From an uncultured Roseburia sp. (GTDB taxonomy: Bacteria > Bacillota > Clostridia > Lachnospirales > Lachnospiraceae), in contig CANRSX010000011.1 of NCBI GenBank assembly GCA_947642555.1, forward strand, positions 1 to 64,000: a DNA stretch of 64,000 nucleotides, read 5' to 3'. Positions within the stretch are counted from its first letter, which is position 1. The number at the start of each line of letters is the position of its first letter. Both the position numbers and the translations under genes were made by a program. Below are positions 39,908 to 56,787 of the stretch, piece by piece. The notes under the pieces are model-generated. The model did not search any database and was not told the origin of the DNA. It was given only the letters and a program-made list of their open reading frames with translations.

Positions 39908-41182
39908 CTATAGCGTCAGCATCGGCGCCTTTCCCTCCAGCTCATCCGCCATATTGAGCACCAGCACATTCCAGTTGATGAAACCCCCGTTCATCACCGG
40001 CTCCCCGTCAAAGGGATTATAGTACTCGTGCAGGCTGCCGGTCTTCTCAAGGTCGCGGCCCAGAAGGGTGAGGGTCCGCTCGTACAAAAGCTTTGCCTCC
40101 TTCCGGTAGCCGTAGCGCATCAGCCCGGCAAACACGACATAGTTTGCCACCAGCCACACCGGCCCCAGCCAGTTCGACGGGTTATTCGTGGCGGAGAGGT
40201 CGAACATCTTCTCATCCTTCGCCAGCGTGGTAAGCCCGTAGTCCGAGCCGAAGGTCTTCTCGTCAAAGATGTGGCGCACCATGGCCGCTGCCTGCTCCTC
40301 CGTGGCGATCCCCGCATACATCGGGATAAAGCCTGACCACACGCGAATTTTGATCGGCAGGGTCTTCCAGAACACGCCCAGCCCCTGGTGGAACCAGTCA
40401 AATTTGCGCGTCTTTATATCGACATCTGCCGAATAAAAGAACTGATCCCTCGGATCCCAGCACTCCCGCTGAATCGCCGCGATGAGCGCCTCGCGCTTTT
40501 CCTCAAAATACCGCGCCCGCTCTTCCTTCCCGAACTGCCGGCAGATCTTCGCCGCCGCGAGAAGCTCATTGCACATAAAGCTGTTCAGATAAATATTCGC
40601 CGTGGAAAACTTCGGCCGCCCGAATGTCGCGGGGTCGTTGTCCATGCCGATCATGATATCGTCGCACCAGACATACAGCCCGCAGTCCGGGAAAAAGTAG
40701 TTTTTCTCATAGCAGGCAAAATAGTTCTCGATCCCCTGATAAAAACCGTTCGCCCAGGTGTAATCCCCCGTAAAATCACTGATCAGGCAGATCTGGCTGC
40801 ACAGGAAGGGCTTGTGCATATTCATCAGCACGCCTTCCTTATGCTTCAGATTCAGGTAGGGCTCCGGCCACTCCGCGACCTCGATCATCATCGGGATATA
40901 GCCGTCCGGGAGCTGATGGTCGAAGAAATTGCGGATATTTCCCTTTGCGTGGAGTACCAGACGCTCCTTCACCGCGGGATCCTCATACCGGTCCGCGAGA
41001 TTTAAAAACCCGTATACCGACCAGAAGGTATCCCAGTCCCACACATTGCCGTCATACACCGAACCCGGATCGATAAACGGATAGCGGATAAAGGACCTCG
41101 GCTGCTTTAACACATCCTGCGTATGCCCCATGACAAACGATAACAGCTTTTGCCGGTATTCCTCTCTCTTTTCTGTCTGCAT
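39908..41182 (-). CDS. Trehalase/GH63-like (alpha/alpha)6-barrel glycoside hydrolase
   Basis: 424 residues, no signal peptide. Motifs YDGNVWDWDTFWSVYGFL near the N-terminus, then NPSNWLGPVWLVANYVVFAG and SLHEYYNPFDGEPVMNGG at the C-terminal end are typical of the GH37/GH63/mannosylglycerate-hydrolase-like (MGH1-type) fold. Likely a cytoplasmic glucosidase or related enzyme. Starts 4 nt after the preceding permease gene ends, so it is part of the transporter operon. Confidence 0.82.
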   Translation of the reverse strand: MQTEKREEYRQKLLSFVMGHTQDVLKQPRSFIRYPFIDPGSVYDGNVWDWDTFWSVYGFLNLADRYEDPAVKERLVLHAKGNIRNFFDHQLPDGYIPMMIEVAEWPEPYLNLKHKEGVLMNMHKPFLCSQICLISDFTGDYTWANGFYQGIENYFACYEKNYFFPDCGLYVWCDDIMIGMDNDPATFGRPKFSTANIYLNSFMCNELLAAAKICRQFGKEERARYFEEKREALIAAIQRECWDPRDQFFYSADVDIKTRKFDWFHQGLGVFWKTLPIKIRVWSGFIPMYAGIATEEQAAAMVRHIFDEKTFGSDYGLTTLAKDEKMFDLSATNNPSNWLGPVWLVANYVVFAGLMRYGYRKEAKLLYERTLTLLGRDLEKTGSLHEYYNPFDGEPVMNGGFINWNVLVLNMADELEGKAPMLTL

Positions 41183-41186
41183 CGCG

Positions 41187-42014
41187 TTACCCCTTGACCG
41201 CGCCGGCCATCATTCCTTCCATCAGCTTCTTGTTCAGCACCGTGTAGAGAATCAGCATCGGGAACACACTCATGGACACCGATGCAAAGATCGCGCCCCA
41301 GTTCTTCGATCCGAACTCATCCGAGAAATATAACAGTCCCGTCTGCACGGTTTTTAACGCGGAATCGCTGATAAAGGTCATGGAAAACAGAAGGTCGTTC
41401 CATTTGAAGAAGAACTGTAATACCAGCACCGTCACGATCGCGTTCTTCATCAGCGGCACCACGATATGCCACATCATCTTATAAATCCCGCATCCGTCGA
41501 TCACGGCCGCCTCCATGATATCATCCGGGAAGGATCTTAAATATCCCTGCACCAGGTAGATCGAGAGCGACAGGCCGAATGCGATATAGGTCAGCACCAG
41601 ACAGGTCCTCGTGTTTAACAGGTGCATTTTGTTATAAATCTGAAACAGCGGAATCAGCGCGACCGCAACCGGAATCATGATTCCGAAGGTAAAATATTTC
41701 GCCACCGCGTTTCGAAGCTTCCACTGCATTTTTGTCACAGCAAATCCTACAGTCGTAGAAAATATTACGATAAACACCAGCGAGATCAGCGTTGTGATCA
41801 GACTGTTTTTAAAGAACACCGCCATGTTACCCCTGGTCCACGCGTCCACGTAATTCTGGAAATAAAATCCTTTGTTCAGCGCATACGCGGGATTCTCGCT
41901 CCACTCGTGCTGCTGCTTTAAGGACGCCGTCAGCATCCAGAACAGCGGGTAGATCTCAACCAGACAGATCAGTACAATGATTAACCCCCGGATTCCTCCT
42001 CTTACTTTTCTCAT
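41187..42014 (-). CDS. Carbohydrate ABC transporter permease (MalG type)
   Basis: 275 residues with six membrane segments. The EAA loop is seen as DIMEAAVIDGCGIYKMMWHI. Partner of the MalF-type gene 14 nt upstream. Confidence 0.94.
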   Translation of the reverse strand: MRKVRGGIRGLIIVLICLVEIYPLFWMLTASLKQQHEWSENPAYALNKGFYFQNYVDAWTRGNMAVFFKNSLITTLISLVFIVIFSTTVGFAVTKMQWKLRNAVAKYFTFGIMIPVAVALIPLFQIYNKMHLLNTRTCLVLTYIAFGLSLSIYLVQGYLRSFPDDIMEAAVIDGCGIYKMMWHIVVPLMKNAIVTVLVLQFFFKWNDLLFSMTFISDSALKTVQTGLLYFSDEFGSKNWGAIFASVSMSVFPMLILYTVLNKKLMEGMMAGAVKG

Positions 42015-42028
42015 CGTCCTCTACCCCC

Positions 42029-42910
42029 TCAGTCGTCTTTCACATCAAATTTGTTAATAATCGCGGATCCGCACACGCAGATCAGGAAAATCACGATCGC
42101 GATAACACTTCCGTATCCAACCTTATTAAAGGTAAAGGAAACGTCATACATATACATGGACAGCGACTTGGTCGCCGAGCCCGGGCCTCCCTTTGTCAGA
42201 GCCAGCGCCGATTCAAACATCTTGACCGTACCGGAAAAGCTGAATACCAGGCTGGTGATGACCATCGGCCGAAGCAGCGGGAGAAGAATCATGCGGAACA
42301 GGTTAAAGCTCGATGCCCCGTCGATGCGCGCCGCCTCTAAAATATCATCCGGGATATCCAGAAGCGCCCCGTAAAAGATCACGGAATAGAATCCCATCGC
42401 GACCCAGATATCCATCACGCACAGCGCCCACAGCGCCGTGCTCTCCTGCCCGATCCAGGGCTGTACCAGGTTCTGCAGCCCGATGGAGCTTAAAAAGCTG
42501 TTTAACAGACCGTAGTTCGGCTGGATCTCGTAGATCTTTGCGAACAGCTGGCCCACCGCAACCGTCGGCAGCACCACCGGGAAGAACACCAGCGTACGCA
42601 CAAAGGATTTGCAGTGCTTTAACCAGAATTTAAACATCAGCGCCAGAAGCAGCCCTAACCCTACCTGCCCGATGGTCACCACCGAGATATATTTAAAATT
42701 GACCATCAGCGCGTTTCTGAAATTTTTATCCCGAAACAGATCCAGATAATTCTTAATTCCGACAAATTCCCATTTCAGACCCGGACTTCCTGAAAACAGC
42801 GAGTAGTAAAGTGACCAGATAACCGGAACCATTACCAGCGCCGTATACAGAATCAGTGCGGGGACGACAAACAGTGCGATTGCCGATTTGTTTCCCAATA
42901 CTTTCTTCAT
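42029..42910 (-). CDS. Carbohydrate ABC transporter permease (MalF/UgpA type)
   Basis: 293 residues with six membrane segments. The EAA loop is seen as DILEAARIDGASSFNLFRMI. Translation begins downstream of a strong terminator-like hairpin that separates it from the binding-protein gene. Confidence 0.94.
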   Translation of the reverse strand: MKKVLGNKSAIALFVVPALILYTALVMVPVIWSLYYSLFSGSPGLKWEFVGIKNYLDLFRDKNFRNALMVNFKYISVVTIGQVGLGLLLALMFKFWLKHCKSFVRTLVFFPVVLPTVAVGQLFAKIYEIQPNYGLLNSFLSSIGLQNLVQPWIGQESTALWALCVMDIWVAMGFYSVIFYGALLDIPDDILEAARIDGASSFNLFRMILLPLLRPMVITSLVFSFSGTVKMFESALALTKGGPGSATKSLSMYMYDVSFTFNKVGYGSVIAIVIFLICVCGSAIINKFDVKDD

Positions 42911-42936
42911 ATCGCCCGATTTCCTCTCTATCCTGA

Positions 42937-42998
42937 CAAAAAGGGAGTGTCCGGGATGTCATGCTCTGATCTGACTTACGACATCTTCCAGACACTCC
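42937..42998 (-). terminator. Attenuating terminator between binding protein and permeases
   Basis: On the minus strand GGAGTGTCTGG..GATGTC pairs with GACATC.CCGGACACTCC and is followed by CTTTTTG. It lies within the transporter operon, so partial termination would give more binding protein than permease. Confidence 0.75.
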
Positions 42999-43065
42999 TC
43001 CTTATGATCTGCGGGAAATACTCCGATTCCCCTTATAAAGCATTCACATTTTCCGTGCTTTTCTC

Positions 43066-44505
43066 CTACTGCATATCATGTACGTCCTGAATGGACTGCA
43101 TGTATTCCTCACCGGTCATATCACCGTTTAACAGAGGCTGTACATTCTCCTGCGCGGTCTTGCTCACCTCGCTGGACATCTTTGCTTCCCACCATGCAAA
43201 GCCTTCGGTGGACTCGTTGATCGCGTCAAGCACCATCTGCGTATACGGATCTAACTCAGCGGATGCGGAGTAGGTGTAACCCTTCACCGTAGCCATCTCG
43301 TTCATTGCCAGATCGCCCATGTTCTCACAGAAGTACTTTAAGAACCATGCGGTTGCCTCGTCGTATTTGCTCTTATCCATCGCAAGGATATTACCGCAGT
43401 TCATGGAGTAAGAGGTCGCGCTGCTGACGGACTCGTCGGATACCGGAATGTTGAAGAATCCGATTCCGTCCTTGCCTGCCGGATTCTGGCTCTCGTCTGC
43501 CAGGTTCTGCGTAAACCAGGAACCGTTGTATAAGATCGCCGCCTTGCCGCTCATGAGCATGGAGCCCGCGGTGTTCATATCAACCGTCGTGATACCTTCG
43601 CCGAAGTAGCCTTTCTCCGCCCAGCCTGCAACCGTATCCGCAGCTGCGATCAGGCCCGCGTCCGTGTACGGCGTCTCGCCGTTCGCCGTCTTTGTCATGA
43701 TATCATTGCCGCAGGTTCTCACTGCCACCGCGTTGATCAGACGGGTTGCCGGCCACTTGTCGGAACCGCCGGTCACTAACGGCTGGATCCCTGCCTCGTC
43801 TAACTTCGCCAGCACTTCCTCGAACTCATCCCAGGTCTTCGGAGCCTCGCAGCCTGCCTGCTCAAAGAGCGCCTTGTTGTACCAGAAGCCCTCCGCGTTC
43901 AGTCCGAGCGGGAGATCGTAGAGATCATCCGTTCCGGAAAGTCCCTTCATCAGCTCCACAGCGCCCTCGTTTAAGTACTGGGTCGCGCCGATCTCCTCAA
44001 GCGCTTCCGATACGTTGACGATCTTATCCGCTTCGATTAACGTCACAAGCGGTGCGCCTGCCTCATAGGCGAAGAAATCCGGAAGATCATTGGAAGCCGC
44101 TAAGGTTGCGATCTTCTGCTGCAGCTGATCCGCTGCCACCATCTCGTATTCCCACTCAAAGTTCGGGTTTACGTCGTTCTTGTAATTCTCACAGATTTTG
44201 TTTAACAGGATACCGTTGTCGTTGTCCTCCGCCCAGATCGTTAAGATCTTGACCTTCTTTGCCAGCTGGGGATCCTCACCCGAGAAATCCGTCGCGCCTG
44301 CCGCGTCGCCTGCATCCGCGCCCTCGTCCGGCGTCTCTGCGTCGTCGCCGCCCGCTGCTTCCTCGGTAGCCGGCGCTGTCGTCCCGGCATCCGGAGCCGG
44401 CGTATTCGCATCCGTTCCTGCGTCGCCGCCCTTGTCGCCGCATCCTGCCACAAGGCCGGTCACCATGAGCGCTGTCAGTAAAGCTGCAATTACTCTTTTC
44501 TTCAT
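43066..44505 (-). CDS. Sugar ABC transporter substrate-binding lipoprotein (MalE-like)
   Basis: About 479 residues. The second ATG (44505) is preferred: GGGAGG lies 6 nt before it. Signal peptide with lipobox LVAGC (Cys ~21), then a low-complexity Ala/Gly/Asp/Thr-rich linker (~25-65) and a family 1 solute-binding fold. Delivers an oligosaccharide to the MalF/G-type permeases downstream. No ATPase is encoded nearby. Confidence 0.94.
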   Translation of the reverse strand: MKKRVIAALLTALMVTGLVAGCGDKGGDAGTDANTPAPDAGTTAPATEEAAGGDDAETPDEGADAGDAAGATDFSGEDPQLAKKVKILTIWAEDNDNGILLNKICENYKNDVNPNFEWEYEMVAADQLQQKIATLAASNDLPDFFAYEAGAPLVTLIEADKIVNVSEALEEIGATQYLNEGAVELMKGLSGTDDLYDLPLGLNAEGFWYNKALFEQAGCEAPKTWDEFEEVLAKLDEAGIQPLVTGGSDKWPATRLINAVAVRTCGNDIMTKTANGETPYTDAGLIAAADTVAGWAEKGYFGEGITTVDMNTAGSMLMSGKAAILYNGSWFTQNLADESQNPAGKDGIGFFNIPVSDESVSSATSYSMNCGNILAMDKSKYDEATAWFLKYFCENMGDLAMNEMATVKGYTYSASAELDPYTQMVLDAINESTEGFAWWEAKMSSEVSKTAQENVQPLLNGDMTGEEYMQSIQDVHDMQ

Positions 44506-44511
44506 CGTCAT

Positions 44512-44642
44512 CCTCCCAATTATGAATGATTTCAGCGTTTCATTTCCTCTGCTGATAGATACAGTTTACCATTCCGGGAGATTTTTTCTAGTGAGTAATT
44601 TTTTATATTTTGTATGGTTTTTTTATATGTGTCAGTACTTTT
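44512..44642 (-). promoter_or_regulatory. Regulatory region of the MalE/F/G-type transporter operon
   Basis: 131 bp between the response-regulator stop and the binding-protein start. It holds an AT-rich tract (44580-44640) likely to be the YesN-type operator and an extended -10 TGG-TAAACT near 44570 with no good -35, as expected for an activator-dependent promoter. Confidence 0.45.
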
Positions 44643-45698
44643 TTAGTAATTGTGCTTATACTCGTTCGGGGTCAGCCCGACATGCTTCTTAAATATATCA
44701 CAAAAATACCGGTAATTATTGTATCCGACCAGTTCACTTGTCTCATTGACCTTATGTCCGTCCCGCAGCAGCTTTTTGGCATGCCGGATCCGGAGCTCCG
44801 TTAAATATTTCACATAGGAGGTCCCCACCTCCGTCTTAAACAGGACGCTCAGGTACGCCGTGCTCATCCCGGCCCGCTCCGCCAGCTCGTTTAACCCGAT
44901 ATCCTCGTTGTAGTGCTCGTCGATATAGGCGAGCAGCTCTAAGATCGCCGCGTGGCTGCTGCCCGTCTTATCCGCCTCGATATAACGCGCGATATCCGTC
45001 ACGATATTTCTCGCATACTCCCATACCTCCTGCTTCGTCGCCTTGCGCTCCATCTCCTGATACGAGATCAGCGTATCGCGGGATACCTGGGGCTGGCGCT
45101 CCGCTAAGATATCGCTCTGCACACAGAGCCATTTGTAAACCTCACGCCTGAAATCCTCCGCATTGTCATAGAGCTTCTGAAGCTCCTCAAGCGCTTCCTC
45201 CATATGCTTTTTTAACTCGCCCGCATCCCCGCGCGCCATGGACGCCACGGAGTCGTCAAACAGCTCCCGCAGCCGCTTTTGCCCTGCGCTGTTTTCCTGA
45301 AGCGCAGTGCTCTTCTCCCTGGAGGAAAAGCAGTCGCGCTCCACCCGGTCAAGCACTTCCTTCAGCTTCGCGATACTGATCGGCTTATCGATATAGCCCT
45401 TTACCCCCATGGACAGCGCCCGCCTGGCATACTCGAACTCCGTATAACCGCTGATTACCACAAACACCGTGTCCGGGCATGACTCCTTCGCCGTCTCGAT
45501 CAGCGAAAGCCCGTCCAGCCCCGGAATCCGGATATCCGTAATCACAAGATCCGGTTTATGCTTTTCCACGACCTCCAGTCCGTGAATCCCGTCATAAGCC
45601 CAGCCGACCACCTCATACTGAAGCTTCTGGCGCGCAATCATCGCTTTGATCCCCTCTACCACAAGATACTCGTCATCAATCACTACCAGCCGGTACAT
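44643..45698 (-). CDS. YesN-type response regulator, AraC family
   Basis: About 351 residues, start ATG after GGTGGAG, overlapping the sensor gene by 23 nt. Receiver domain (VIDDEYLVVEGIKAM, phosphoacceptor in LVITDIRIPGLDG), long helical linker with charged residues, then AraC helix-turn-helices (IGLNELAERAGMSTAYLSVLF, GYNNYRYFCDIFKKHVGLTP). Likely activator of the adjacent transporter promoter. Confidence 0.95.
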   Translation of the reverse strand: MYRLVVIDDEYLVVEGIKAMIARQKLQYEVVGWAYDGIHGLEVVEKHKPDLVITDIRIPGLDGLSLIETAKESCPDTVFVVISGYTEFEYARRALSMGVKGYIDKPISIAKLKEVLDRVERDCFSSREKSTALQENSAGQKRLRELFDDSVASMARGDAGELKKHMEEALEELQKLYDNAEDFRREVYKWLCVQSDILAERQPQVSRDTLISYQEMERKATKQEVWEYARNIVTDIARYIEADKTGSSHAAILELLAYIDEHYNEDIGLNELAERAGMSTAYLSVLFKTEVGTSYVKYLTELRIRHAKKLLRDGHKVNETSELVGYNNYRYFCDIFKKHVGLTPNEYKHNY

Positions 45699-47451
45699 CG
45701 TCTCCACCCCTCTTGTCAAACGGCAACCTGATTGTTATCTTTGTTCCCTTCCCCTTTTCACTCTCCACGGTAAATCCGTATTCCTCCCCGTAATGCAGGC
45801 TGATGCGCTCCCGCACATTCCGGATCCCGTATCCGCGCTCCATCACGGACAGGTCGTCCATCCCGACCCCGTCATCCTCGACAGTAAACATCAGAAGCTC
45901 CCCGTCCAGCCAGCCGCGCACCCAGATATTTCCCCGTCCGACCTGCGGCTCGAGCCCGTGGTAAAGCGCATTCTCCACAAACGGCTGCAGCAGGAAGGTT
46001 AAAATCTGTTTCGTTCTTGCCGCCTCCTCCACCTCCACATGGAGGTTAAACCGCTCGTTAAACCGCATATTCTGCAGCTTCATATAATTCTCAATCTGCC
46101 GGATCGCCTCGTCCACCGCATAAAAGCGCTCCCCGTTATTTAAGGACAGTTTAAAATTGTCGGAGAGCGCCAGAATCATCTCCGCGATCTGGTCGTCCCC
46201 GTGAATGATCGCCACACAGTAGAGCGAATCCAGCGTATTGTAGAGGAAATGCGGATTGATCTGCGCCTGCAGCAGCAGAAGCTCCGCCTCCCGCTCCTTT
46301 AGCCTGGCGTTTAACAGATACTCCGAGAGCTCCAGATTTGTATTGACCATCTCCCGGAATTTCTGTCCGATCCGTCCGACCTCGCTCTCGTCAAACGTCT
46401 CCGTAATGTGCCGCTCCCCTTCCCCGACCTTTCCGATGACCTGTTCGAGCTGGCTTAGCGGCTTTGTGATCGTCCGCGAAATCGCCATCGCGAGAAAGAC
46501 GCTCAGCACCACCAGAAACCCCCCGCAGAAAAATACGGTGTTGCGGATCAGCTTACTGTCCGTGCTCAGCTCGTTTCGCTCGATGACATTGACGAGCTCC
46601 CACCCGGTCGTCTCGTTATGGACGCTGGTAAAGATATATTTTTTCTGGCTGTCGCGGTTTTGGAACGCCTCCGCCAGCTCGTCCGGATGCGCAATGTCCT
46701 CCGGCGCAAAGACCAGCTGGCAGTCGCGTTTTTCGTCGACTACCATGTAGACGTTTGTCGCATATCCCTCGTTTCCCGTCACAAAGGACCGCTCGAGCAC
46801 AGACAGACTTAAATCAACCACGATATACCCCATCGGCTCGTTGTTCACCGGATTGTTCAGATATTTGACAAGACTTAAGCCCTCTTCGTAAAGGCCGCCG
46901 AGCACACTGTCCCCGAAAAAGACCTCCCGTCCCCCGGCCTCCCTGGCCGCACGGCTCCACTCAGTGGCCAGGAAATCGTGCTCCTCATAGTACTGAAAAA
47001 AATCATAGGAGCCCCGGTTGATATTGCTTAACAGATAATAATGCCCGTACAGATCGATAAACGCCACATAATTGACCCGGCTCTCCTGCTTCGTCAGCCG
47101 CTCGGCAACCCCTTTTAACACCCGCTGCTCCGCCATGGTAAACGATCGCTTCCCGTTGTCCGTCTGGCTGAGCAGCACCTTCTTAAAATCCTGGTCGTTT
47201 AAAAAAGAACGGATCACCTCGATCATCGGGTTTAAGTTCATATCCAGCACTTTCCCCGAATTTTTCAGCGTGGCCGCATGGGACATACGGAAATTCCGCT
47301 CCACGGTATTCCTGGAAATCCGGTATGAAATTCCTCCGATGGAGCCGATTCCCAGGATCGCGACAAGGAGGAGAGAGAACAGGATCTGCTGACGGATCCG
47401 CTGATTGATCCACCACTGCCGGATATGGGCGCGCCTGATCCGGCCGCTCAC
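45676..47451 (-). CDS. YesM-type sensor histidine kinase
   Basis: 591 residues, GTG start overlapping the stop of the GH78 gene. Membrane segments ~22-42 and ~295-315 flank an extracytoplasmic sensor; HAMP and the histidine kinase domain follow (INPHFLYNTLDSLYCVAI, phosphorylated His; FLLQPFVENALYHGL; GVGMDDLSVMERGYGIRNV). Paired with the overlapping regulator gene. Probably senses the glycan handled by this locus. Confidence 0.95.
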   Translation of the reverse strand: MSGRIRRAHIRQWWINQRIRQQILFSLLLVAILGIGSIGGISYRISRNTVERNFRMSHAATLKNSGKVLDMNLNPMIEVIRSFLNDQDFKKVLLSQTDNGKRSFTMAEQRVLKGVAERLTKQESRVNYVAFIDLYGHYYLLSNINRGSYDFFQYYEEHDFLATEWSRAAREAGGREVFFGDSVLGGLYEEGLSLVKYLNNPVNNEPMGYIVVDLSLSVLERSFVTGNEGYATNVYMVVDEKRDCQLVFAPEDIAHPDELAEAFQNRDSQKKYIFTSVHNETTGWELVNVIERNELSTDSKLIRNTVFFCGGFLVVLSVFLAMAISRTITKPLSQLEQVIGKVGEGERHITETFDESEVGRIGQKFREMVNTNLELSEYLLNARLKEREAELLLLQAQINPHFLYNTLDSLYCVAIIHGDDQIAEMILALSDNFKLSLNNGERFYAVDEAIRQIENYMKLQNMRFNERFNLHVEVEEAARTKQILTFLLQPFVENALYHGLEPQVGRGNIWVRGWLDGELLMFTVEDDGVGMDDLSVMERGYGIRNVRERISLHYGEEYGFTVESEKGKGTKITIRLPFDKRGGDDVPAGSD

Positions 47452-50204
47452 GGTTTCTTCTGGTACCGGATCCGGTATGTCCCGCTGCCGGCCTCCGCCA
47501 TATCATACCCGTCGCCCGGCACAAAGGCAAGGCCGTCGGCCTCGAGCACGCTCTTCGCCTGATCCAGCCGGATCTGGGCCGTCGTGTTCGCCGGGATGCT
47601 CACCGTAAGCGTCACCGTATCCTCCTCCTGCTCCCAGCGGACCGACTCCTCCCCGTAAATCGAGTGATACGTCCCTTCCACCCAGGAGAGCCCGCCGCCC
47701 GGCCTCGGATAAATCAGCGCGTGCGCAAATCCGCTCTGCTCCTCGTCCACCTCGAGTCCCGCCATTACGCGGTACATCCACTCCCCGATCGCGCCGTAGG
47801 CGTAGTGGTTGAATGAATTCATATCCGCGCTCCACATCGTCCCGTCGGGCTTTAAGCCGTCCCAGTGCTCCCAGATCGTGGTCGCCCCCATCTTCACCTG
47901 GTAGAGCCAGGACGGGAAGTCCTCTTTTAACAGCAGGTCATACGCTTCCTTCACGCAGCCGTTCTGGCTTAATGCGTGGCAGAAGTACGGCGTCCCGACA
48001 AAGCCGGTCACAAGATGGCCGTTTTCTTTTGCCAGCAGGCGCTTTAATCCCTCCACGGTCCGCGGGATATAAGCTTCCGGCGTCAGCTTAAAATAGAGCG
48101 CCACGATATGAGCGGTCTGCGTCTGCGCGGTCAGGTCGCCGTTTTCATCAAAAAAGGTCTGCTGGAATTTGTCCACGATCTTCTGATAAAGCGCGTCGTA
48201 CTCCGCTGCCTCCAGTTTTCCCAGCACATGGGCTGCCTTCGCGAACAGGCCGGTCGAGTAGGCGTAATATGCCGTGCAGGTCAGATCGTTGGGCGTCGCG
48301 CCGAAATAGCTGCCCTCCTCGGCGTCCAGGGCGACCCAGTCCCCAAACTGTAATTTGTAGTTCCATATATAATCCTCAGAGTGAGCTCGCATGAATCCGA
48401 TCCAGCCCTTCATGCTCTCATACTGCCGCTCTAAGATCTCCTTGTCGCCGAACATCAGATACATGGTCCAGGGCATGATCACCGCCACATCCGCCCAGGC
48501 CGCCGCGGAATGGGGGCCCTGGGAGAGCAGCCAGTTGCCGTCCGTGCGCCCTTCCTCGATGTTGGGCACCACATGGGGCACGCCGCCCTCGGGCGTCTGA
48601 TCCACCTCCACGTCCCGCAGCCACTTTTTAAAGAAGGTGTAGGTGTTGGAAAGGTAGCTCGCCGTCCGGCAGAAGATCTGCGCGTCTCCCGTCCAGCCCA
48701 GCCGCTCGTCGCGCTGCGGGCAGTCGGTCGGCACATCCAGGAAATTTCCCTTCATCCCCCACAGGTAGTTGTGGTGCAGCTGGTTTAATAGCGGGTTGGA
48801 GCAGGTGATCTTCCCGGTGCGCTCCATCGCGGAGTGCAGCGTGTACGCCGTAACGTTTTCTTTTTTCAGCTCACCCGGGTATGAAACCACCAGCGCATAG
48901 CGGAAGCCCATGTAGGTAAACCGCGGATGCCAGGTGATGGTCCCCTCCTTCGCAAAGATGTACCGCATCGTGGTCTTTGCCGCGCGCAGGTTGTCCAGGT
49001 AGACGTTTCCCTTCGCGTCAAGCGTCTCAAAACAGCGCAGCTCGATCACGTCTCCCGGCTTCCCGGCGGCGGTCACATGGATCCTCCCGGCGAGATTCTG
49101 CCCGAAATCCAGCACCGTATCGCCCTTTGGCGTCGTGATGATCTCCACGCAGGGCAGCTCGTCCATCATGCGCACCCTTGCGCCGCTCTGCGCCCGCAGC
49201 ACCGAGGTGTCAAAGGGTACGGTGACGACGCCGTGCCAGGGTTCCCCGGCGGCACCCGGCTTGCCTGTCCCGCAGGAAATCACCGCCCAGTCCGGAATCT
49301 CCTTCGCGGCGTCATAGGTCTCCCCGTCGTAGATCTCGGAGAAAATCACCGGCGAATCGGCTCCCTGCCAGCTCTCCCCGGTGCGGATGACTTCCTCCGT
49401 GCCGTCCTCATAGCGCAGCAGCAGGTCCATCGCAAAGCCGGTCTGGTCACCATAATTATTGCGCGCCTTGGTCAGGCCCATCACGCCCTTGTACCAGCCC
49501 GCCGCCAGCATGGCCCCCGCCATGTTTTCGCCCTCTTTTATATCATCCGTCACCTCATATGTCTGATAGAGCAGATGCCTCTGATAGGACGTCCAGCCCG
49601 GCGTCATCTCGTCGTCCCCGACCTTTTTCCCGTTTAAGAAAAAGTTGTAAAGCCCCAGGGCCGTCGTGCAGGCAAAGGCTTCCTTTAACGGTTTTTTCAC
49701 CGTAAAAGTCCCCCGCACATACGTACCCTTCGAGCATTCCTTATAAGAATCGTCCGTCTCCGCCGAGACAAACGGCGCCTGCCATTTCTCGTCATTTGTA
49801 AACGCCGTCACGAACCAGGCCGGCTCGCTGTACGTTGTCTGCTCCGCTCCGTCCGAGATGCGGACCCGGACAAAATATTTTGTGCGGGATTCATAGCGGA
49901 AGGGTATGCCATTGCCGGGCGCTGCGGCTGCCTCTGCCGGATCCCCGGCCGCAGCTGTGTCCGCAGGCACATCCGCACGCGCCGGTTCCCCAAAGGCTCT
50001 CACATGCGCCGACTCCGCGGAGGCCACCTCGCCGCTGTCATATACGATGTCTGTAAAATCCCGATCCCTCGCCAGCTGAAGCCGGTAGGAGGCCTGCCGT
50101 ACATTCCTTTTATCGCTTGTGATCTCCCAGCCAAACTGCGGGGAGCCCGTCACACCGATGGGATTCGTCTCGTAGTCGATATGGATTCTTTCTATCTTAA
50201 GCAT
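47448..50204 (-). CDS. GH78 alpha-L-rhamnosidase
   Basis: 918 residues, no signal peptide, so it acts on imported oligosaccharides or glycosides. Domains: N-terminal Ig-like (NPIGVTGSPQFGWEITS), carbohydrate-binding-like beta domain (~180-330), linker sheet, six-hairpin barrel (~460-800) with the catalytic region CPQRDERLGWTGDAQ and the base-containing FNHYAYGAIGEWMYR, and a C-terminal beta domain. The start after GGGGAGG overlaps the DUF849 stop. Releases terminal alpha-L-rhamnose. Confidence 0.93.
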   Translation of the reverse strand: MLKIERIHIDYETNPIGVTGSPQFGWEITSDKRNVRQASYRLQLARDRDFTDIVYDSGEVASAESAHVRAFGEPARADVPADTAAAGDPAEAAAAPGNGIPFRYESRTKYFVRVRISDGAEQTTYSEPAWFVTAFTNDEKWQAPFVSAETDDSYKECSKGTYVRGTFTVKKPLKEAFACTTALGLYNFFLNGKKVGDDEMTPGWTSYQRHLLYQTYEVTDDIKEGENMAGAMLAAGWYKGVMGLTKARNNYGDQTGFAMDLLLRYEDGTEEVIRTGESWQGADSPVIFSEIYDGETYDAAKEIPDWAVISCGTGKPGAAGEPWHGVVTVPFDTSVLRAQSGARVRMMDELPCVEIITTPKGDTVLDFGQNLAGRIHVTAAGKPGDVIELRCFETLDAKGNVYLDNLRAAKTTMRYIFAKEGTITWHPRFTYMGFRYALVVSYPGELKKENVTAYTLHSAMERTGKITCSNPLLNQLHHNYLWGMKGNFLDVPTDCPQRDERLGWTGDAQIFCRTASYLSNTYTFFKKWLRDVEVDQTPEGGVPHVVPNIEEGRTDGNWLLSQGPHSAAAWADVAVIMPWTMYLMFGDKEILERQYESMKGWIGFMRAHSEDYIWNYKLQFGDWVALDAEEGSYFGATPNDLTCTAYYAYSTGLFAKAAHVLGKLEAAEYDALYQKIVDKFQQTFFDENGDLTAQTQTAHIVALYFKLTPEAYIPRTVEGLKRLLAKENGHLVTGFVGTPYFCHALSQNGCVKEAYDLLLKEDFPSWLYQVKMGATTIWEHWDGLKPDGTMWSADMNSFNHYAYGAIGEWMYRVMAGLEVDEEQSGFAHALIYPRPGGGLSWVEGTYHSIYGEESVRWEQEEDTVTLTVSIPANTTAQIRLDQAKSVLEADGLAFVPGDGYDMAEAGSGTYRIRYQKKP

Positions 50205-51015
50205 CCGCACATCCTCCCCGTTTCTTCAAATGCAGGATCTCCCGCGCCTCATCCGGCGTCGCGGGCTCTAAGCCCATGGCACGGATCAGCGCCGCGAGCT
50301 TTTCCACCACCTGGTAATTGTACTCCGCCGTGCGTCCCTCGTCTAAGTATGCGCTGTCCTCAAAGCCGATGCGCACCACCGTCGCCCCCATCGCGATCGC
50401 CGCCGCGAGGAACGTCCAGTTGTCACGCCCGAAATGCGTCACGCCCCATAAGGCGTCCTGCGGCACAAACGAGCGGAAGGCCGCGAGCATCTCCGGGGTC
50501 GGCTGCATACCGCCCTTGTGTCCGAAGACCAGGTTAAACAGCTGCGGCTCGGCAAAGGGCTGCTCATCCGCCACCAGCTTCATATTGTGGAGCATCCCGA
50601 TGTCGAATACCTCCGTCTCCGGGAGGATTCCCCTGCGGTACACCGCGTCCGCACAGTAGCGGATGTCGTCGAACGAATTGATGTACACACTCTCCCCCAG
50701 GTTCGTGCTGCCCCCGTTTAAGGACGCGCTCTCCACCTTCTCATAATCCAGCGGATAGCAGCGCTGCTCGATATTCATCTCCGAGACGCCGCCGGTCGAC
50801 GCCTGCACCACGACGTCCGTCCGCTTTAAGATCTCCTCAAAGCAGGTCACCATATAGGAGGTGTCGGGCGTTAAACTTCCGTCCGGCATCCGGCAGTGCA
50901 GATGGCACATCGCAGCTCCCGCCGCCACGCTCTTTTCCACATCCTCCGCCAGCTTCACCGCATCCACCGGCGTGCCGGCTGCGACCGGCGCTAACGATAT
51001 CACTATTTTTCTCAT
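50197..51015 (-). CDS. DUF849 / beta-keto acid cleavage enzyme (BKACE) family
   Basis: 272 residues, TIM-barrel zinc enzyme family. Family members condense a beta-keto acid with acetyl-CoA to form acetoacetate and a CoA ester. Zinc-binding HLH at residues 38-40 (MCHLHCRMPDG), QASTGG, FGHKGG, HFGRDNW and the Glu in VRIGFEDS are present. The true substrate is unknown, but the neighbourhood (sugar-acid kinase, racemase-like enzyme) suggests an acid derived from a plant sugar. Between the fusion gene and GH78, tightly spaced. Confidence 0.88.
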   Translation of the reverse strand: MRKIVISLAPVAAGTPVDAVKLAEDVEKSVAAGAAMCHLHCRMPDGSLTPDTSYMVTCFEEILKRTDVVVQASTGGVSEMNIEQRCYPLDYEKVESASLNGGSTNLGESVYINSFDDIRYCADAVYRRGILPETEVFDIGMLHNMKLVADEQPFAEPQLFNLVFGHKGGMQPTPEMLAAFRSFVPQDALWGVTHFGRDNWTFLAAAIAMGATVVRIGFEDSAYLDEGRTAEYNYQVVEKLAALIRAMGLEPATPDEAREILHLKKRGGCADA

Positions 51016-51048: not shown

Positions 51049-54000
51049 TTACACCAGCTCCTCCACGATCTGGCGCAGCGCCGTCTCATCCCCGACATTT
51101 CCCGGGAAAATGATGTAGGGCATGCCCGGGAATTTACTTTCCTCTCCCGTCATCCAGACCGGAATTCCCTTTAACACCTGCCCCATGACTGTGGCCTTTT
51201 TTACCCGCAGCGCCTTTGTTCCTACATCCGACGAAGTGATGCCGCCCTTGGCGAGGATAAACGCCGGCTTTACGGACAGACTTCCGATCACCGCGGTCAC
51301 CGCGTCCGAGATCTCCACCGATACCTTTAAGATCTCATCCTTATCGGCGGTATCCGGCACGAGCAGCTTCCTGCTGGTGTAGACCACCGCCGTCCTGCCG
51401 CTTTTTATCACCGCCTCCGCCTCCGCCGTAACGCGCGCCGTCTCCGCCGCAAGCCCGCCCGGCGTAAAGCAGGTATTGACGTCAAATTCCATGTAAGAAA
51501 GCTCTGCCTGCGATTTCATCAGGCACTCTAACTGCATGGTCGTTTTTTTCACATGGGAGCCCACCAGCACGATCCCGCCGTTTCCATTCTCGCGGATCAG
51601 CTCTTTTCTGCCCAGCAGCGGCTGGTCCGTCACCCCGCCGAGCACCTTCGGAAATGCCGCCGCCGTCCGCGCGAGGAACTGCTTCCCGGCTTTCACCACG
51701 TCGATAAACGCGGCGCTAAATACCTTCAGATCATCGTAGGTCATCGCGTTCACGATGATTTTCGCGAAATGCTTTGCCGCCGTCAGCTTTTCCGTCACGG
51801 ACGCCAGGTCATGCGCCCTTAATTCGTCAAGCGTAATGCAGATGCAGTCTTCTTTTTTATAAGCGCCCTTCGTCTTTTCCTCCACATATTCTGTCAGGTC
51901 GGAGGACTGATAACCGAAGCTTTTGTCCTTCGCGAACTCCGTCATCCCCGCCGGCACAAGGGCGCTCTTTTCCTTCACGTAATGGACGTTTCCCATCGTA
52001 AAACGGCCGCCCTCCAGGAAAAACGGGCAGAGGATCTCGCCGTCCACAGACGCGCCGCTTACCGCCTCAAGCTCCTGCCGCAATACCTCTGTCTCCAGCG
52101 GGTAATGGCCGCGCAGCGTCGAGTCCCCGCGGGAAATCAGGATGAATTCCTTCCCGCACGCCTTCGCCGCCTCAGCGACACGCCGCGCGATCAGGCGGTG
52201 TACCCGCTCCGTCTCCTCCGCGGAAAAGCTGCGGGAATTCGTCAGGATGAAAAACATGGGATTCTCCTCCGCAAACCCGCTGCGGATGGATTCCTCCTCC
52301 CAGTCCGTGTACACGGACACATCGTGCACGGTCTGTACGCCGGTGGGGTCGTCGTCGAGCACGACGATTTTATGTGTAAATCCGGTCAGACGGTCTGCCA
52401 GCAGGCGGTCAGCCGTTTTTTTTTCCGTCTCTTCCGCTCCCTGATCCGTCACATACGCGACCGGGAACCAGATGCGCATCTCGCCGAACTCACGGTTGTC
52501 CCACGCGAAATACGGGATAAACCGCACCTTCTCCTTATGCATGCCGCGGTAGGACAGGGTCTGGTAGAGCGCCTGCCTGTCATAGCCCTCCCGGTTCATG
52601 CAGTATTCCTCGGTCTCGAGCGCCGTCACCTCCCGTCCTGCGATGGTGACAGACACCGGGCGGTATACCGCGTTAAGATCTAAGTACAGGTCGTCTAAAG
52701 TCTCCGCCGCCGTGTCCACGCCCTCGCAGCAGTAAACAAGCGGACCGCGCTCGATCGCCGCCTGCCCGCAGGCCTCCTCGACGAGATTGTGGGCCGTCGT
52801 ATAGCGAACCTCCATATCCAGCGTCAGGATGACCTCTGCCTGCGCCGGGTCCGCGATCTCCACCGGAAGGTAAGTCCCGGCGTCCGCCGGTGTAAGTTTC
52901 TTCTCCGTGCCATTGACACAGACGCTTCCCCTCACCGCCCAGCCCGGAATCCGGAGCTTTAAGGTAAAGCCCTTCGCGCCCTTCACGTCCTCGCAGGTAA
53001 AGCGGATCTTCCCGTCATACGGGTACTCCGTCTCCTGTACCAGCGTAAATTCCGCCCCGTTCTCCAGCGCGATATGCGCGCGGTTCGCCCCGTACATGCC
53101 GAGCCACACCGCGTCCTCAGACACCGTGTAGGCATACTCCACCGACTGGGCCACCGTCCGGGCCAGGTTCGGCGGGCAGCAGTAGCTTAAGATATACTCG
53201 CTGCGCGTCAGCGGCCAGATCAGCTCGTAGTCCAGCTGTTTCGCGCGGCGCAGCATATTTTCATAGAAGAAACGCTTTCCGTCCATGCTTAAGGCCGCCA
53301 GGTTCGTATTTAACATCATCCGCTCGATCACGTCAAAGTACTCGGCCTTCGGCTCTAACTGGAACATCCGGTATGCCCAGAACACCCCGCCTAAGGACGC
53401 GCAGGTCTCGTTGTAGGCCGTGATGTTCGGCAGCTGATACTCGTAACCGTACGCCTGGTGAATCTTCTGATCCACGAAAAAGTTGCCGTAGGGCGAGACG
53501 CCGTTGTAGAGCGCGCCGCAGCCGCCCGTGATATAGATCTTTTTGTCGATCAGGCTGCGCCACACCTTGTGCAGCACCTCCATGTATTCCTCGTCGGTCT
53601 CCTCCAGACACAGGTCCGCCACACCCGCGTAGAGGTAATTTGCGCGGACGGCATGGCCGATGATTTTGTCATGCTCCTTTAAGGGCAGCCGGTCCTGATT
53701 GTCGTCGAGCCCGTTTTTCACGCTGTCGCGCAGGGCGATCGCCTGCTTTGCCAGCTTCAGATATCTGTCGTCATTTGTCGTCCGATACATTTCCACCAGC
53801 CCCATATAGTGGGACGGGCACACCGCTGTCTGCACCTCGCCGGTTTCCATGGCCTTCGCATAGAGCTGCTCTAAATAATCCGCCGTCTTCACCGCGACCG
53901 CCATAAAGCTGTCCTTTCCGGTGATCCGCTTGTGCAGGCACGCCGAGGTGAACAGATGCCCGAAATTGTATACCTCAAAATCATTGATATCGCCCATGCG

Positions 54001-54405
54001 GGTGATCCCGTTCTGCTGCATCTCGCCGATGATCTGTTTGGTGGAGATATAGCCGTCCGGCTGCTGCGCCTTTGCGATCAGACGAATGTATTCCTCGATC
54101 TGATCCAGCAGCTTTTGATTGCCGTTTCGCGACGCTGTGTAGACCGCGGACTCCATCCATTTATAAAAGTCTCCGTCCCCGAATACGGTACCGTCGAATT
54201 CTCCCTCCGCCTCCCCGGCGCAGATCTTAAAATTTTCCACCACATGACTGATATCCGCGGAATCAAACATGTGCTTTAGCTGCGGCACCGTGCTCTCTGC
54301 GCAGGTGTCAAACCGCTCCTTCCAGAGCCCTCCCGTCCACTCGACATCCAGCCCGTCCACCGGGTGTACCTTTGCATTGACGGATCTTCTCGTATCTGTT
54401 AACAT
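51049..54405 (-). CDS. GH127 beta-L-arabinofuranosidase fused to a DUF1537 four-carbon-acid-sugar kinase
   Basis: A single 1118-codon frame. Residues 1-~657 match a full-length GH127: metal ligands in YNETCASLGG (Glu333, Cys335) and the Cys-Cys pair in YCCPPN (409-410, the first being the likely nucleophile), followed by a beta-sandwich end ...RIWFPVAY. Residues ~661-1118 are a complete sugar-acid kinase: VLDDDPTGVQTVHDV, SRGDSTLRGHYP, FLEGGRFT, and the C-terminal nucleotide-binding KGGITSSDVGTKAL. The two are joined without linker at TEKKTADRLL, encoded across a run of nine A (52424-52416). No stop or separate start lies between them. One base gained or lost there would end GH127 within ~12 codons. 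Such a fusion is not one I know of. Confidence 0.9.
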   Translation of the reverse strand: MLTDTRRSVNAKVHPVDGLDVEWTGGLWKERFDTCAESTVPQLKHMFDSADISHVVENFKICAGEAEGEFDGTVFGDGDFYKWMESAVYTASRNGNQKLLDQIEEYIRLIAKAQQPDGYISTKQIIGEMQQNGITRMGDINDFEVYNFGHLFTSACLHKRITGKDSFMAVAVKTADYLEQLYAKAMETGEVQTAVCPSHYMGLVEMYRTTNDDRYLKLAKQAIALRDSVKNGLDDNQDRLPLKEHDKIIGHAVRANYLYAGVADLCLEETDEEYMEVLHKVWRSLIDKKIYITGGCGALYNGVSPYGNFFVDQKIHQAYGYEYQLPNITAYNETCASLGGVFWAYRMFQLEPKAEYFDVIERMMLNTNLAALSMDGKRFFYENMLRRAKQLDYELIWPLTRSEYILSYCCPPNLARTVAQSVEYAYTVSEDAVWLGMYGANRAHIALENGAEFTLVQETEYPYDGKIRFTCEDVKGAKGFTLKLRIPGWAVRGSVCVNGTEKKLTPADAGTYLPVEIADPAQAEVILTLDMEVRYTTAHNLVEEACGQAAIERGPLVYCCEGVDTAAETLDDLYLDLNAVYRPVSVTIAGREVTALETEEYCMNREGYDRQALYQTLSYRGMHKEKVRFIPYFAWDNREFGEMRIWFPVAYVTDQGAEETEKKTADRLLADRLTGFTHKIVVLDDDPTGVQTVHDVSVYTDWEEESIRSGFAEENPMFFILTNSRSFSAEETERVHRLIARRVAEAAKACGKEFILISRGDSTLRGHYPLETEVLRQELEAVSGASVDGEILCPFFLEGGRFTMGNVHYVKEKSALVPAGMTEFAKDKSFGYQSSDLTEYVEEKTKGAYKKEDCICITLDELRAHDLASVTEKLTAAKHFAKIIVNAMTYDDLKVFSAAFIDVVKAGKQFLARTAAAFPKVLGGVTDQPLLGRKELIRENGNGGIVLVGSHVKKTTMQLECLMKSQAELSYMEFDVNTCFTPGGLAAETARVTAEAEAVIKSGRTAVVYTSRKLLVPDTADKDEILKVSVEISDAVTAVIGSLSVKPAFILAKGGITSSDVGTKALRVKKATVMGQVLKGIPVWMTGEESKFPGMPYIIFPGNVGDETALRQIVEELV

Positions 54406-54424: not shown

Positions 54425-55096
54425 TTACACAAGTCCTTTGGCATGAAGAGCCTCCCGCAGCGCCTGTGCGCCGAACCGCGGGCTCGAGACGACCGGTCTG
54501 CCGGATTTCTCATGCAGATAATCCTCCGCGTAGGCCATGGAGCCCTGGCACAGCAGAATGACATCTGTCTCGTCCATGATCTCTTCGGTCTTTGCCCACA
54601 GCATCTGCTTAAACTGCTCCTGATCGATCCCGAACGCGCCGTCGATCAGCCCGTCCACCAGCACGACGTCACGGTTCATCTCCCGGGCCACGCGCTTTAT
54701 CGTATTTTTCGTCGGCTCTAAGGTCGTAGGCAGCGTGGCCAGCACGCCGATGCGCGCCCCAAGCCGCACCGCCTCGCGGCACATCTCCTCGTCGATCCGC
54801 ACGATCGGCACCCCGGTATATTTTCCGATGGACACCGCCGCGTCCGCCACCTCGCCGACGGAGGAGCAGCAGTTTAAGATCGCATCCGCCCCGTCCGAGG
54901 TCGCCTGCATAAACATCGTCACCAGCCGCGCCGCAGCCCCCGCGGTCACATGCCCCGCCTCGCGCACCTCCGCAAGGATCGACGGATCCTCATAGCTTGC
55001 AATCTCCGCTCCCTCGCCCAGCTGCGCCTTTACCTCGCGGTTTACCAGCTCGATTAACTCCGGCGTCGTACTCGTGTACACAATTCCTGCTTTCAT
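54425..55096 (-). CDS. Aspartate/glutamate racemase-family protein
   Basis: 223 residues, start ATG after AAAGGAG; the longer frame is not supported. Two-domain Asp/Glu racemase fold with one catalytic Cys in LNCCSSVGE (~residue 80) and the second in LLCQGSM (~180). Family members include racemases, maleate isomerase, hydantoin racemase and arylmalonate decarboxylase. Its substrate here is probably an acid in the pathway of the fused kinase; which one cannot be told. Confidence 0.85.
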   Translation of the reverse strand: MKAGIVYTSTTPELIELVNREVKAQLGEGAEIASYEDPSILAEVREAGHVTAGAAARLVTMFMQATSDGADAILNCCSSVGEVADAAVSIGKYTGVPIVRIDEEMCREAVRLGARIGVLATLPTTLEPTKNTIKRVAREMNRDVVLVDGLIDGAFGIDQEQFKQMLWAKTEEIMDETDVILLCQGSMAYAEDYLHEKSGRPVVSSPRFGAQALREALHAKGLV

Positions 55097-55260
55097 TCCA
55101 TATCTCCTTTTCTCTGTGTCTCTTCTATATTGATTTCCCTTTTCAGGGCTGTTTCCTCTCTGTATCCGACGGCCAGGCAGCTCACACATTTTTCCCGCCG
55201 TACAACGGCGGCCGTCCCCGGCGTCCGTACACAGCGTTTGCACCGCCATATACTCACGGC

Positions 55261-56787
55261 TCAGACTGCCCGAAGCCGCACCGCCATATACTCACGGCCC
55301 GGCAGCTCCACGCGGAAGGCCCCTTTTACCCGGCCCCGCGGCTCGATCGTCATATTCCAGGTATCGATCACCTCCACCTCAAACTCCGTCTCATCGTCAA
55401 AATGATACTCTTTAAAGGACGGGCAGGTGAACCCGAAATAGATCAGGTAATAGCTCTTCACCGGGCGCATCCACTCCTGCTCCGGCACCGCGCAGACGCA
55501 GTCCCATTTCAGATCGTACGGCGCAAGCCCGAGTCCCGGCGTCCCGCACATAATGTCATAGAGGAAGCCGAACCGCTTATGGCTCTCGCCGCGCAGCACG
55601 CCGCCGTGCGACCACCAGAGCACGTTCTCCGGGTTTAAGATCGTCTCGCCATGGCCCGCGTAACCGCCGCGGCAGGCCGCCTCCCAGAACCTGCGCACCA
55701 GCTCTTTTCCGCTGATATTTCCCCAGCCGAACTGGATATTTCCCTCGTAGCAGATCTCGTCGAGCACAACGGGTTTTTTGTAAATCTGGCGCCACTTTGT
55801 GACGTTCTCCGCGGACAGGTAAGGCTCCTGCCGCTGGATGCTGCAATGCGTCACCCACGGACGGCTGTAATCGTAAAACGGATGACAGTTGTGGATGGAC
55901 CGCAGGTGATGATACGGATCCTTTTCGCAGATGATCGACGCATAGCGCTCCCAGTCCGCGATCGTCTTGTTCGTCATCAGGTCATATTCGTTCGCCAGCG
56001 ACCACCAGACGTTGCGGTACGCTGCAAACCGCGCCAGCACATACCGCCAGTAGCGGTCGTCCTCCTCCGCCGTCATATCGGAAAAGCCCCAGCGGTCGTA
56101 AGGATGCATCACGATCAGATCCGCCTCGATCCCCCGCCGCTGCAATTCTAAGATACAGCGCTCAATGTGCCGGAAATGCTCCGGATGAAACCGGGTAAAA
56201 TCCCAGTCGTTCCCCTCTTTTTTTCCGGTGTACTGACTGAAATTTTCTCTTGTCAGCACACGGCTGTCCATGGGCGTCCCCTCAAACGGATAGCTCCGCG
56301 GCTCGCCTAAATTGTAGTCATAATGCTTTGGAAAAATACAGAACCGTATCTTGTTAAAGCGCGCTTTTGTAAGGCTCTCTAACGTCTGCGCAATCCGCTC
56401 GTCGCTCTGGAGCTCCCACACATAGCAGGTCGTGCCCACAGAGTAATACGGCGTACCGTCCGCATAGGCGAAATGATACGTTCCCGCCACATGCACCGGT
56501 CCGTGATTGCACCCTGTCGCCGGGCGCACCAGAAATGTCCCCTTTTCTTCCTCAAAAAAACTCCCCGTCAGCGTAAAGGTATAGGTACCCTCAAAGGACG
56601 GCATAAACCGGACAATGTAAACGCCGTCCCCGTCATAAAAACCGTCCGTCTCCACCGTCTCCTTCCCGCAGGAAAATATTCCGCGGATGTACTGCTCCGT
56701 AAACGGGTTGCCGTCCGCCGGGCCATGGCAGGTAAACTCCGCCACCCCCCAGCGCTCTACCTGTGTCTCATATGTCACCATATTCAC
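55261..56787 (-). CDS. DUF5060/DUF4038/DUF5605 glycoside hydrolase
   Basis: 508 residues, no signal peptide. An N-terminal beta domain (DUF5060, ~1-85) precedes a TIM barrel related to DUF4038/GH140. Catalytic Glu candidates lie in WWSLANEYDLM (acid/base) and PVVLDEICYEG (nucleophile). A C-terminal DUF5605 beta domain ends the protein. GH140 enzymes studied elsewhere cleave apiosyl linkages in rhamnogalacturonan II, so an apiosidase-like role is possible. Start GTG 56787 or ATG 56781, both after AAGGGG. First enzyme gene of the locus after the LysR gene. Confidence 0.82.
   Translation of the reverse strand: MNMVTYETQVERWGVAEFTCHGPADGNPFTEQYIRGIFSCGKETVETDGFYDGDGVYIVRFMPSFEGTYTFTLTGSFFEEEKGTFLVRPATGCNHGPVHVAGTYHFAYADGTPYYSVGTTCYVWELQSDERIAQTLESLTKARFNKIRFCIFPKHYDYNLGEPRSYPFEGTPMDSRVLTRENFSQYTGKKEGNDWDFTRFHPEHFRHIERCILELQRRGIEADLIVMHPYDRWGFSDMTAEEDDRYWRYVLARFAAYRNVWWSLANEYDLMTNKTIADWERYASIICEKDPYHHLRSIHNCHPFYDYSRPWVTHCSIQRQEPYLSAENVTKWRQIYKKPVVLDEICYEGNIQFGWGNISGKELVRRFWEAACRGGYAGHGETILNPENVLWWSHGGVLRGESHKRFGFLYDIMCGTPGLGLAPYDLKWDCVCAVPEQEWMRPVKSYYLIYFGFTCPSFKEYHFDDETEFEVEVIDTWNMTIEPRGRVKGAFRVELPGREYMAVRLRAV

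Follow-up and report, generated by a model that had tools for sequence, protein, structure and literature searches.

The question raised by this locus is whether a single reading frame that carries a complete glycoside hydrolase and, behind it, a complete metabolite kinase is a real gene, and, if it is, what the two enzymes could be doing together. The gene is found on the minus strand of a 64,000-nucleotide stretch of DNA from an uncultured Roseburia sp. (contig CANRSX010000011.1, positions 1 to 64,000; this whole stretch is called the window below). The answer that we favor, with moderate confidence, is that two consecutive genes of a catabolic operon have truly fused, and that the GH127 half would release aceric acid from rhamnogalacturonan II (RG-II) while the DUF1537 half would phosphorylate a later intermediate. 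The gene and its parts, given in amino acids (aa) of the product, are as follows.

51049..54405, minus strand: fused gene, 1118 aa, GH127 (aceric-acid-hydrolase-like) plus DUF1537 acid-sugar kinase (from open reading frame (ORF) reading, Pfam, NCBIfam)
52462..54405, minus strand: GH127 half, aa 1-648, with catalytic, middle and C-terminal domains and intact NETCA and CCPPN motifs (Pfam, motif scan)
52372..52461, minus strand: junction, aa 649-678, a low-confidence loop and then a retained kinase N-terminal helix (junction reading, model)
52416..52424, minus strand: A9 run at the join, codons GAA AAA AAA ACG (sequence)
51049..52371, minus strand: DUF1537 kinase half, aa 679-1118, SBD_N and NBD_C (Pfam)

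The initial annotation of this gene, made from the sequence alone, described one uninterrupted frame with a full GH127 protein followed by a full DUF1537 kinase, and the 1118 aa ORF indeed contains five Pfam domains that all exceed their curated cut-offs: the GH127 catalytic (aa 20-420, 298.8 bits), middle (aa 433-531, 52.9 bits) and C-terminal (aa 533-648, 75.1 bits) domains, then the kinase SBD_N (aa 680-920, 159.5 bits) and NBD_C (aa 945-1110, 116.4 bits) domains. The ETC and Cys-Cys motifs that it had noted, which hold metal and nucleophile residues in GH127, are located within NETCA at aa 332 and CCPPN at aa 409. The join reads ...WFPVAYVTDQGAEETEKKTADRLLADRLTGFTHKIVVLDDDPTG, with a run of exactly A9 inside GAA AAA AAA ACG, as had been reported, and the early end of GH127 in either shifted frame is likewise confirmed: the -1 frame continues as NG* (stop 2 codons on) and the +1 frame as RLTACWQTV* (stop 9 codons on). 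The protein starts with MLTDTRRSVNAK, and no signal peptide is apparent by eye. In a predicted model of the fused protein (mean predicted local distance difference test score (pLDDT) 76.5, predicted template modeling score 0.53), pLDDT falls below 50 at aa 634-662, and the retained N-terminal helix of the kinase is predicted at aa 658-673. The model was built on a 23-row alignment in which 8 rows contain the GH127 part; since these rows are few, we make no statement on the relative orientation of the two domains.

A homopolymer lying exactly at the join, together with the fact that most kinase-bearing relatives have two genes, could suggest that an assembly or sequencing indel has merged what is truly a pair of genes or a frameshifted pair. 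To place the gene among its relatives, one scan was made of named genomes, and the best 80 of the 206 related stretches were used. Fusions number 3; in 35 loci a separate kinase lies downstream (8 of these with a GntR-type gene between, in a gap of about 0.9 kb), in 9 it lies upstream, and in 33 no kinase is in view. One of the relatives, locus L022 (Bacterium 1xD8-48, genome G457), is fused in frame across an identical A9. When 37 genomes from the genus of that organism were searched, a second such genome emerged, G486 (locus L181); it and G457 were the only matches at E <= 1e-100. The window gene is 73-74% identical to these two in nucleotides and 79% in amino acids, and two of the three A9-fusion genomes are 95.5% identical to each other over the fusion protein. 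Because three genomes carry the same in-frame A9 fusion, we reject the indel explanation as highly improbable. It also fits poorly with the sequence itself: A8 or A10 would leave the downstream kinase frame with no start before its core, save a GTG inside that core, and nothing is left of the spacer that relatives have.

The same domain order is also found in two Blautia metagenome-assembled genomes (loci L024 and L041), with much longer linkers of 61 and 103 residues from WFP to LDDDPTG; the L041 contig terminates within the kinase. The fused GH127s of these two (L024:58-3675 and L041:4916-8499) additionally have insertions of 16-51 residues after positions equivalent to window residues 476 and 500. 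No further fusion besides the window's own was found in 62 genomes of its genus, nor in 397 family genomes at E <= 1e-100, in a scan that scored at most two candidates per genome and included some of the same organisms as the 80 loci. The fusion is thus genuine and rare and comes with two types of junction, one short and truncated and one with a long linker, while separate genes are the usual state of what are two known families. The true one-chain fusion proposed at first therefore stands; that close relatives would always have two genes, leaving the window gene as a sequencing error, is contradicted by the two further genomes.

How the short junction arose can be read from the unfused relatives. 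In nine of these whose junctions were read, GH127 stops within a few residues of a W-x-P motif and the kinase has its own start; in 42 of 44 separate kinases an in-frame ATG was found ahead of LDDDPTG, the most upstream one at a median distance of 40 aa. From A9 to the core, the window's kinase frame lacks ATG and TTG codons, and its sole GTG is inside the core beta strand. The last N-terminal kinase helix is kept in the window and shortened in L022 and G486. Judged from these sequences, the window lineage has lost, besides the stop codon of GH127 and the spacer, the start of the kinase and roughly half (about 20 of 40) of the residues that usually form the kinase N terminus. The original proposal of formation by loss of a stop thus holds as to the stop itself, and falls short in that the spacer, the start and those residues went as well.

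Whether the two junction types go back to one event is a matter on which the kinase and GH127 trees, both built before L181 was found, conflict. A single clade of the four fused rows is rejected by the kinase tree (23 rows; approximately unbiased test, p-AU 0.0138). The GH127 tree (25 rows) joins the four fused rows at 82/85, a value that is not starred, and it tolerates a constraint that groups the window pair with eight unfused relatives (p-AU 0.131). Two fusion events look likelier than one because the junctions differ, being short and truncated in one case and long linkers in the other.

The A9 run at the join raises the possibility of a programmed system, in which transcriptional slippage, or -1 frameshifting on A_AAA_AAA, yields both GH127 alone (ending at about EKKNG) and the full fusion, comparable to the two products of bacterial dnaX. 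Exact A9 runs are scarce (18 on both strands of 4.99 Mb), long ORFs totaling 187.8 kb, those of the window among them, contain no other A9 in sense orientation, and of 397 family genomes just the one that the window comes from has CGGAAAAAAAAACGGC. The run is also kept in all three genomes with the short junction, with a -1 stop after 2-3 codons and a +1 stop after 9. Given the window's codons, however, such retention is just mildly unusual, with a rough conditional chance of 0.04-0.07 (about 0.33 with L022 alone); across the three genomes, AAA is used throughout in 8 of 50 invariant Lys columns and GAA throughout in 6 of 69 invariant Glu columns. The comparison amounts to one independent case, since the pair with 95.5% protein identity is among the three. 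The downstream RNA fold has z values of -1.36 and -2.13 in the window, as opposed to +0.67 at both lengths in L022, and no common stimulatory structure was found between these two, the sequences folded; such a structure is needed for frameshifting and not for transcript slippage. The long-linker junctions of L024 and L041 contain no A run of 6 or more, and 5 of the 17 other A9 runs lie, on a mechanical reading, inside a sense ORF of at least 200 aa. The idea of A9 as a unique mark was dropped on account of these five sites. At any A9 a certain leakage, here to GH127 alone, is plausible; programmed slippage we regard as unlikely.

The fusion itself is good evidence that the two enzymes share one pathway, and the surrounding genes, listed here, indicate which others may belong to it.

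50197..51015, minus strand: BKACE (PF05853), beta-keto acid cleavage enzyme family, conserved partner (Pfam, clustering)
54425..55249, minus strand: Asp/Glu-racemase-like (PF01177), conserved partner (Pfam, clustering)
47448..50210, minus strand: alpha-L-rhamnosidase, Bac_rhamnosid domains, GH78 type (Pfam)
55261..56787, minus strand: apiosidase-like glycosidase, PF13204, DUF5060 and DUF5605 (Pfam)
39908..47451, minus strand: histidine kinase, response regulator (by cluster), ATP-binding cassette (ABC) solute-binding protein, two permeases, and a GH63/mannosylglycerate-hydrolase-like gene (Pfam, clustering)

ORFs were clustered over 81 loci (the 80 plus the window), of which 48 have the kinase and 33 do not, and four genes emerged as linked: the racemase-like gene, GH127, the kinase and BKACE. 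Of the 48 loci with the kinase, 39 have BKACE and 38 the racemase-like gene; among the 33 without it, the counts are 1 and 6 (Fisher p 3e-13 for BKACE, 7e-8 for the racemase-like gene). These p values overstate the association, as the genomes are related rather than independent and some contigs are short. Absences are upper bounds, since long antisense ORFs (e.g., cluster c20) and short contigs hide some genes. All four genes, plus the apiosidase-like gene, are visible around the G486 fusion. The true start of the racemase-like gene is probably inside the ORF at 54425..55249, because the cluster median is 225 aa. The coupling of a hydrolase to a metabolite kinase had at first been called odd; since 44 of the 80 loci have the two unfused as near neighbors (kinase downstream in 35, upstream in 9) and both belong to one conserved module, it is not. 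The fusion thereby names a small candidate set: GH127, the kinase, the racemase-like gene and BKACE.

Beyond this set, GH78, GH42, apiosidase-like, alpha-L-fucosidase, SASA esterase, GH2, and ABC or tripartite ATP-independent periplasmic (TRAP) transport genes occur in varying numbers of loci. An apiosidase-like gene also lies upstream of the fusion in L183, and the gene order at 39908..47451 recurs in several relatives. Some loci have an isomerase, an FGGY kinase and a split transketolase, which we read, from the D-apiose pathway, as serving D-apiose use; the window's genome has a 78% copy of the isomerase, located elsewhere. Aceric acid, a rare RG-II sugar, is the next residue under the galactose of side chain B. 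In excerpts of PMC12282258, degradation of that chain proceeds by removal of arabinose and rhamnose and then methylfucose, exposing the galactose for an RG-II-specific galactosidase. The module's neighbors fit degradation of RG-II side chain B.

Two further genes of the window may be described here. At 58914-62264 (minus strand), a Pro/Glu-rich, repetitive-looking protein of 1116 aa has, by eye, a signal-like N terminus and a membrane-anchor-like C terminus and resembles a surface protein. At 35479-37209 (minus strand), an AAA-ATPase-like plus PDDEXK_9 gene lies between the region's two transporter blocks.

The only NCBIfam match of the GH127 half is the aceric acid hydrolase family NF049879, at 754.6 bits; two GH127 stretches from other genomes of the window's genus reach 449 and 401 bits. 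Its nearest solved chain is 5mqo (530.5 bits, versus 275.6-322.4 for the next five), which we take to be BT1003. An insertion, GALY.G.SP.G...HQ.YG, before the catalytic region is common to the GH127 half and 5mqo and absent from four other aligned chains. Among 81 GH127 halves, the GALY.G.SP.G part of the insertion is present in 76, NETCA in 78 and CCPPN in all 81. BT1003 is described as an aceric acid hydrolase in the portion of PMC10850190 available to us. The arabinofuranosidase label of the initial annotation is accordingly less apt than that of aceric acid hydrolase, to which the protein is nearer by both measures (the sole NCBIfam match, and 530.5 against at most 322.4 bits), and the GH127 half probably releases aceric acid.

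All 47 kinase halves have DDDPTG and R(S/G)DSTLRG, and 46 have KGGITSSD. A single-sequence search with the window's kinase half retrieved no DUF1537 chain among solved structures; a profile of 21 kinases matched 1yzy (E 0.0046) and 4xfr (E 0.13), both presumably DUF1537 proteins. By these sequence comparisons, the kinase half is a divergent DUF1537 protein. It is the single PF07005 match in the window's genome assembly, and DUF1537 is uncommon, with PF07005 in 3 of 14 control genomes. Outside the module, we looked at 20 loci with kinase relatives, picked from the top family-genome matches, scanning one representative per neighbor family. A 295-aa NAD-binding (LtnD-type) dehydrogenase family stands beside the kinase in 14 of these, a second DUF1537 gene with PdxA and GntP in 11, the racemase-like gene in 3 and BKACE in 2. 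Similar gene sets serve tetronate pathways in the excerpted text of PMC12540250. The kinase half probably phosphorylates an acid-sugar intermediate, and among the substrate types named in the initial annotation, acids of the 3-oxo-isoapionate type are the best chemical lead.

Aceric acid is 3-C-carboxy-5-deoxy-L-xylose, and the following route can be proposed for it. Inside the cell, the GH127 half would free aceric acid from imported fragments of RG-II side chain B, and an isomerization would then give 2,4-dihydroxy-2-(1-hydroxyethyl)-3-oxobutanoate, a methyl homolog of 3-oxo-isoapionate and a relative, branched at position 2, of 3-oxo-tetronate. On the terminal hydroxyl of this compound the kinase would act in the manner of 3-oxo-tetronate or 3-oxo-isoapionate kinases. 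The resulting beta-keto acid would lose CO2 to give a 5-deoxypentulose 1-phosphate, from which an aldolase could produce dihydroxyacetone phosphate and acetaldehyde. The isomerase/epimerase and C-C cleavage steps would fall to the racemase-like protein and BKACE. There is precedent for the chemistry, as far as partial texts go: a 3-oxo-tetronate kinase followed by a decarboxylase leads to dihydroxyacetone phosphate (PMC12540250), and PMC6302742 cites decarboxylation of 3-oxo-isoapionate-4-phosphate and proposes that 5-deoxyribulose 1-phosphate is cleaved to dihydroxyacetone phosphate and acetaldehyde. No aceric acid catabolic pathway appeared in the listed titles and opening lines of abstracts of the open-license literature searched. 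The strongest form of the proposal, a new aceric acid route of hydrolase, isomerase/epimerase, kinase and C-C cleavage, joined into one chain in one lineage with A9 setting the ratio of hydrolase alone to fusion, is less likely than not. Substrates, reaction order and cellular location are all proposals, as would be any benefit of fusion through shared dosage or proximity.

Several observations weigh against this proposal. The GH127 half misses the NF049879 equivalog cut-off of 950 and so is not assigned to that family, and the 8 clade relatives scanned fall below it too, at 727.5-769.2 bits. In 33 of the 80 loci no kinase is present in the DNA in view, and the genomes in the Fisher tests are not independent, which inflates the link. 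No isomerase, decarboxylase or aldolase was recognized as a steady module member; in the set read as serving D-apiose use, neither the isomerase nor the FGGY kinase reaches any NCBIfam cut-off, the top match of the latter being glycerol kinase. The roles given to BKACE and the racemase-like protein are guesses. The BKACE pattern H.H.R matches 35 of 40 proteins, and simple cysteine patterns match just 8 and 19 of 44 racemase-like ones. Finally, L178:1189-8688 has BKACE, GntR, TRAP, racemase-like and kinase genes with no GH127 in 15 kb, possibly a module for a free acid sugar, so that the acid may also enter free or the substrate may be untied to RG-II.

It is conceivable, if less probable, that aceric acid is the wrong substrate: the fusion would be real, and its module would be devoted to a different acid sugar or to a beta-linked arabinofuranoside. 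The score under the cut-off would agree with this, as would the deposition of 5mqo itself as a beta-L-arabinofuranosidase and the kinase relatives beside tetronate-type genes. The 5mqo-type insertion, the nearest-relative score and the RG-II-type neighbors speak for aceric acid instead, and an acid-sugar kinase, with TRAP genes in some loci, suits a carboxylated sugar better than arabinose. In L088, L094, L098 and L100, TRAP genes lie directly downstream of the racemase-like/GH127 pair (in L098 the kinase is not in view), consistent with uptake of a free carboxylated sugar.

The fused protein may finally be set beside known systems. It resembles the GH127 aceric acid hydrolase BT1003 (NF049879) in its GH127 domains, NETCA and CCPPN motifs and shared insertion, 5mqo, which we take to be BT1003, being its nearest solved relative, and differs in scoring below the family cut-off, in having no signal peptide apparent by eye and in the kinase fused on. 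With OtnK, DtnK and OiaK, which we take to be DUF1537 acid-sugar kinases, it has in common SBD_N and NBD_C domains above cut-offs and shared motifs; unlike them, the window kinase is remote from solved members, shares its chain with a glycosidase and has BKACE and a racemase-like gene as linked neighbors. Frameshift genes like dnaX also have a slippery run in frame and an early -1 stop (after 2-3 codons, in three of three genomes here), whereas the downstream RNA structure of the window gene is not common with L022. D-apiose catabolism with 3-oxo-isoapionate kinase (Carter 2018, as cited in part of PMC6302742) likewise concerns a branched sugar of the same polymer; no RuBisCO-like protein is among the module proteins scanned, and the pathway here is a prediction. 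The closest counterpart as a fusion is Arabidopsis LTD (AT1G18270), an LtnD-OtnK-OtnC protein in which, in the excerpt of PMC12540250, an OtnK-type kinase is also fused to catabolic enzymes; its partners are a dehydrogenase and a decarboxylase, whereas the partner in the window is a glycoside hydrolase.

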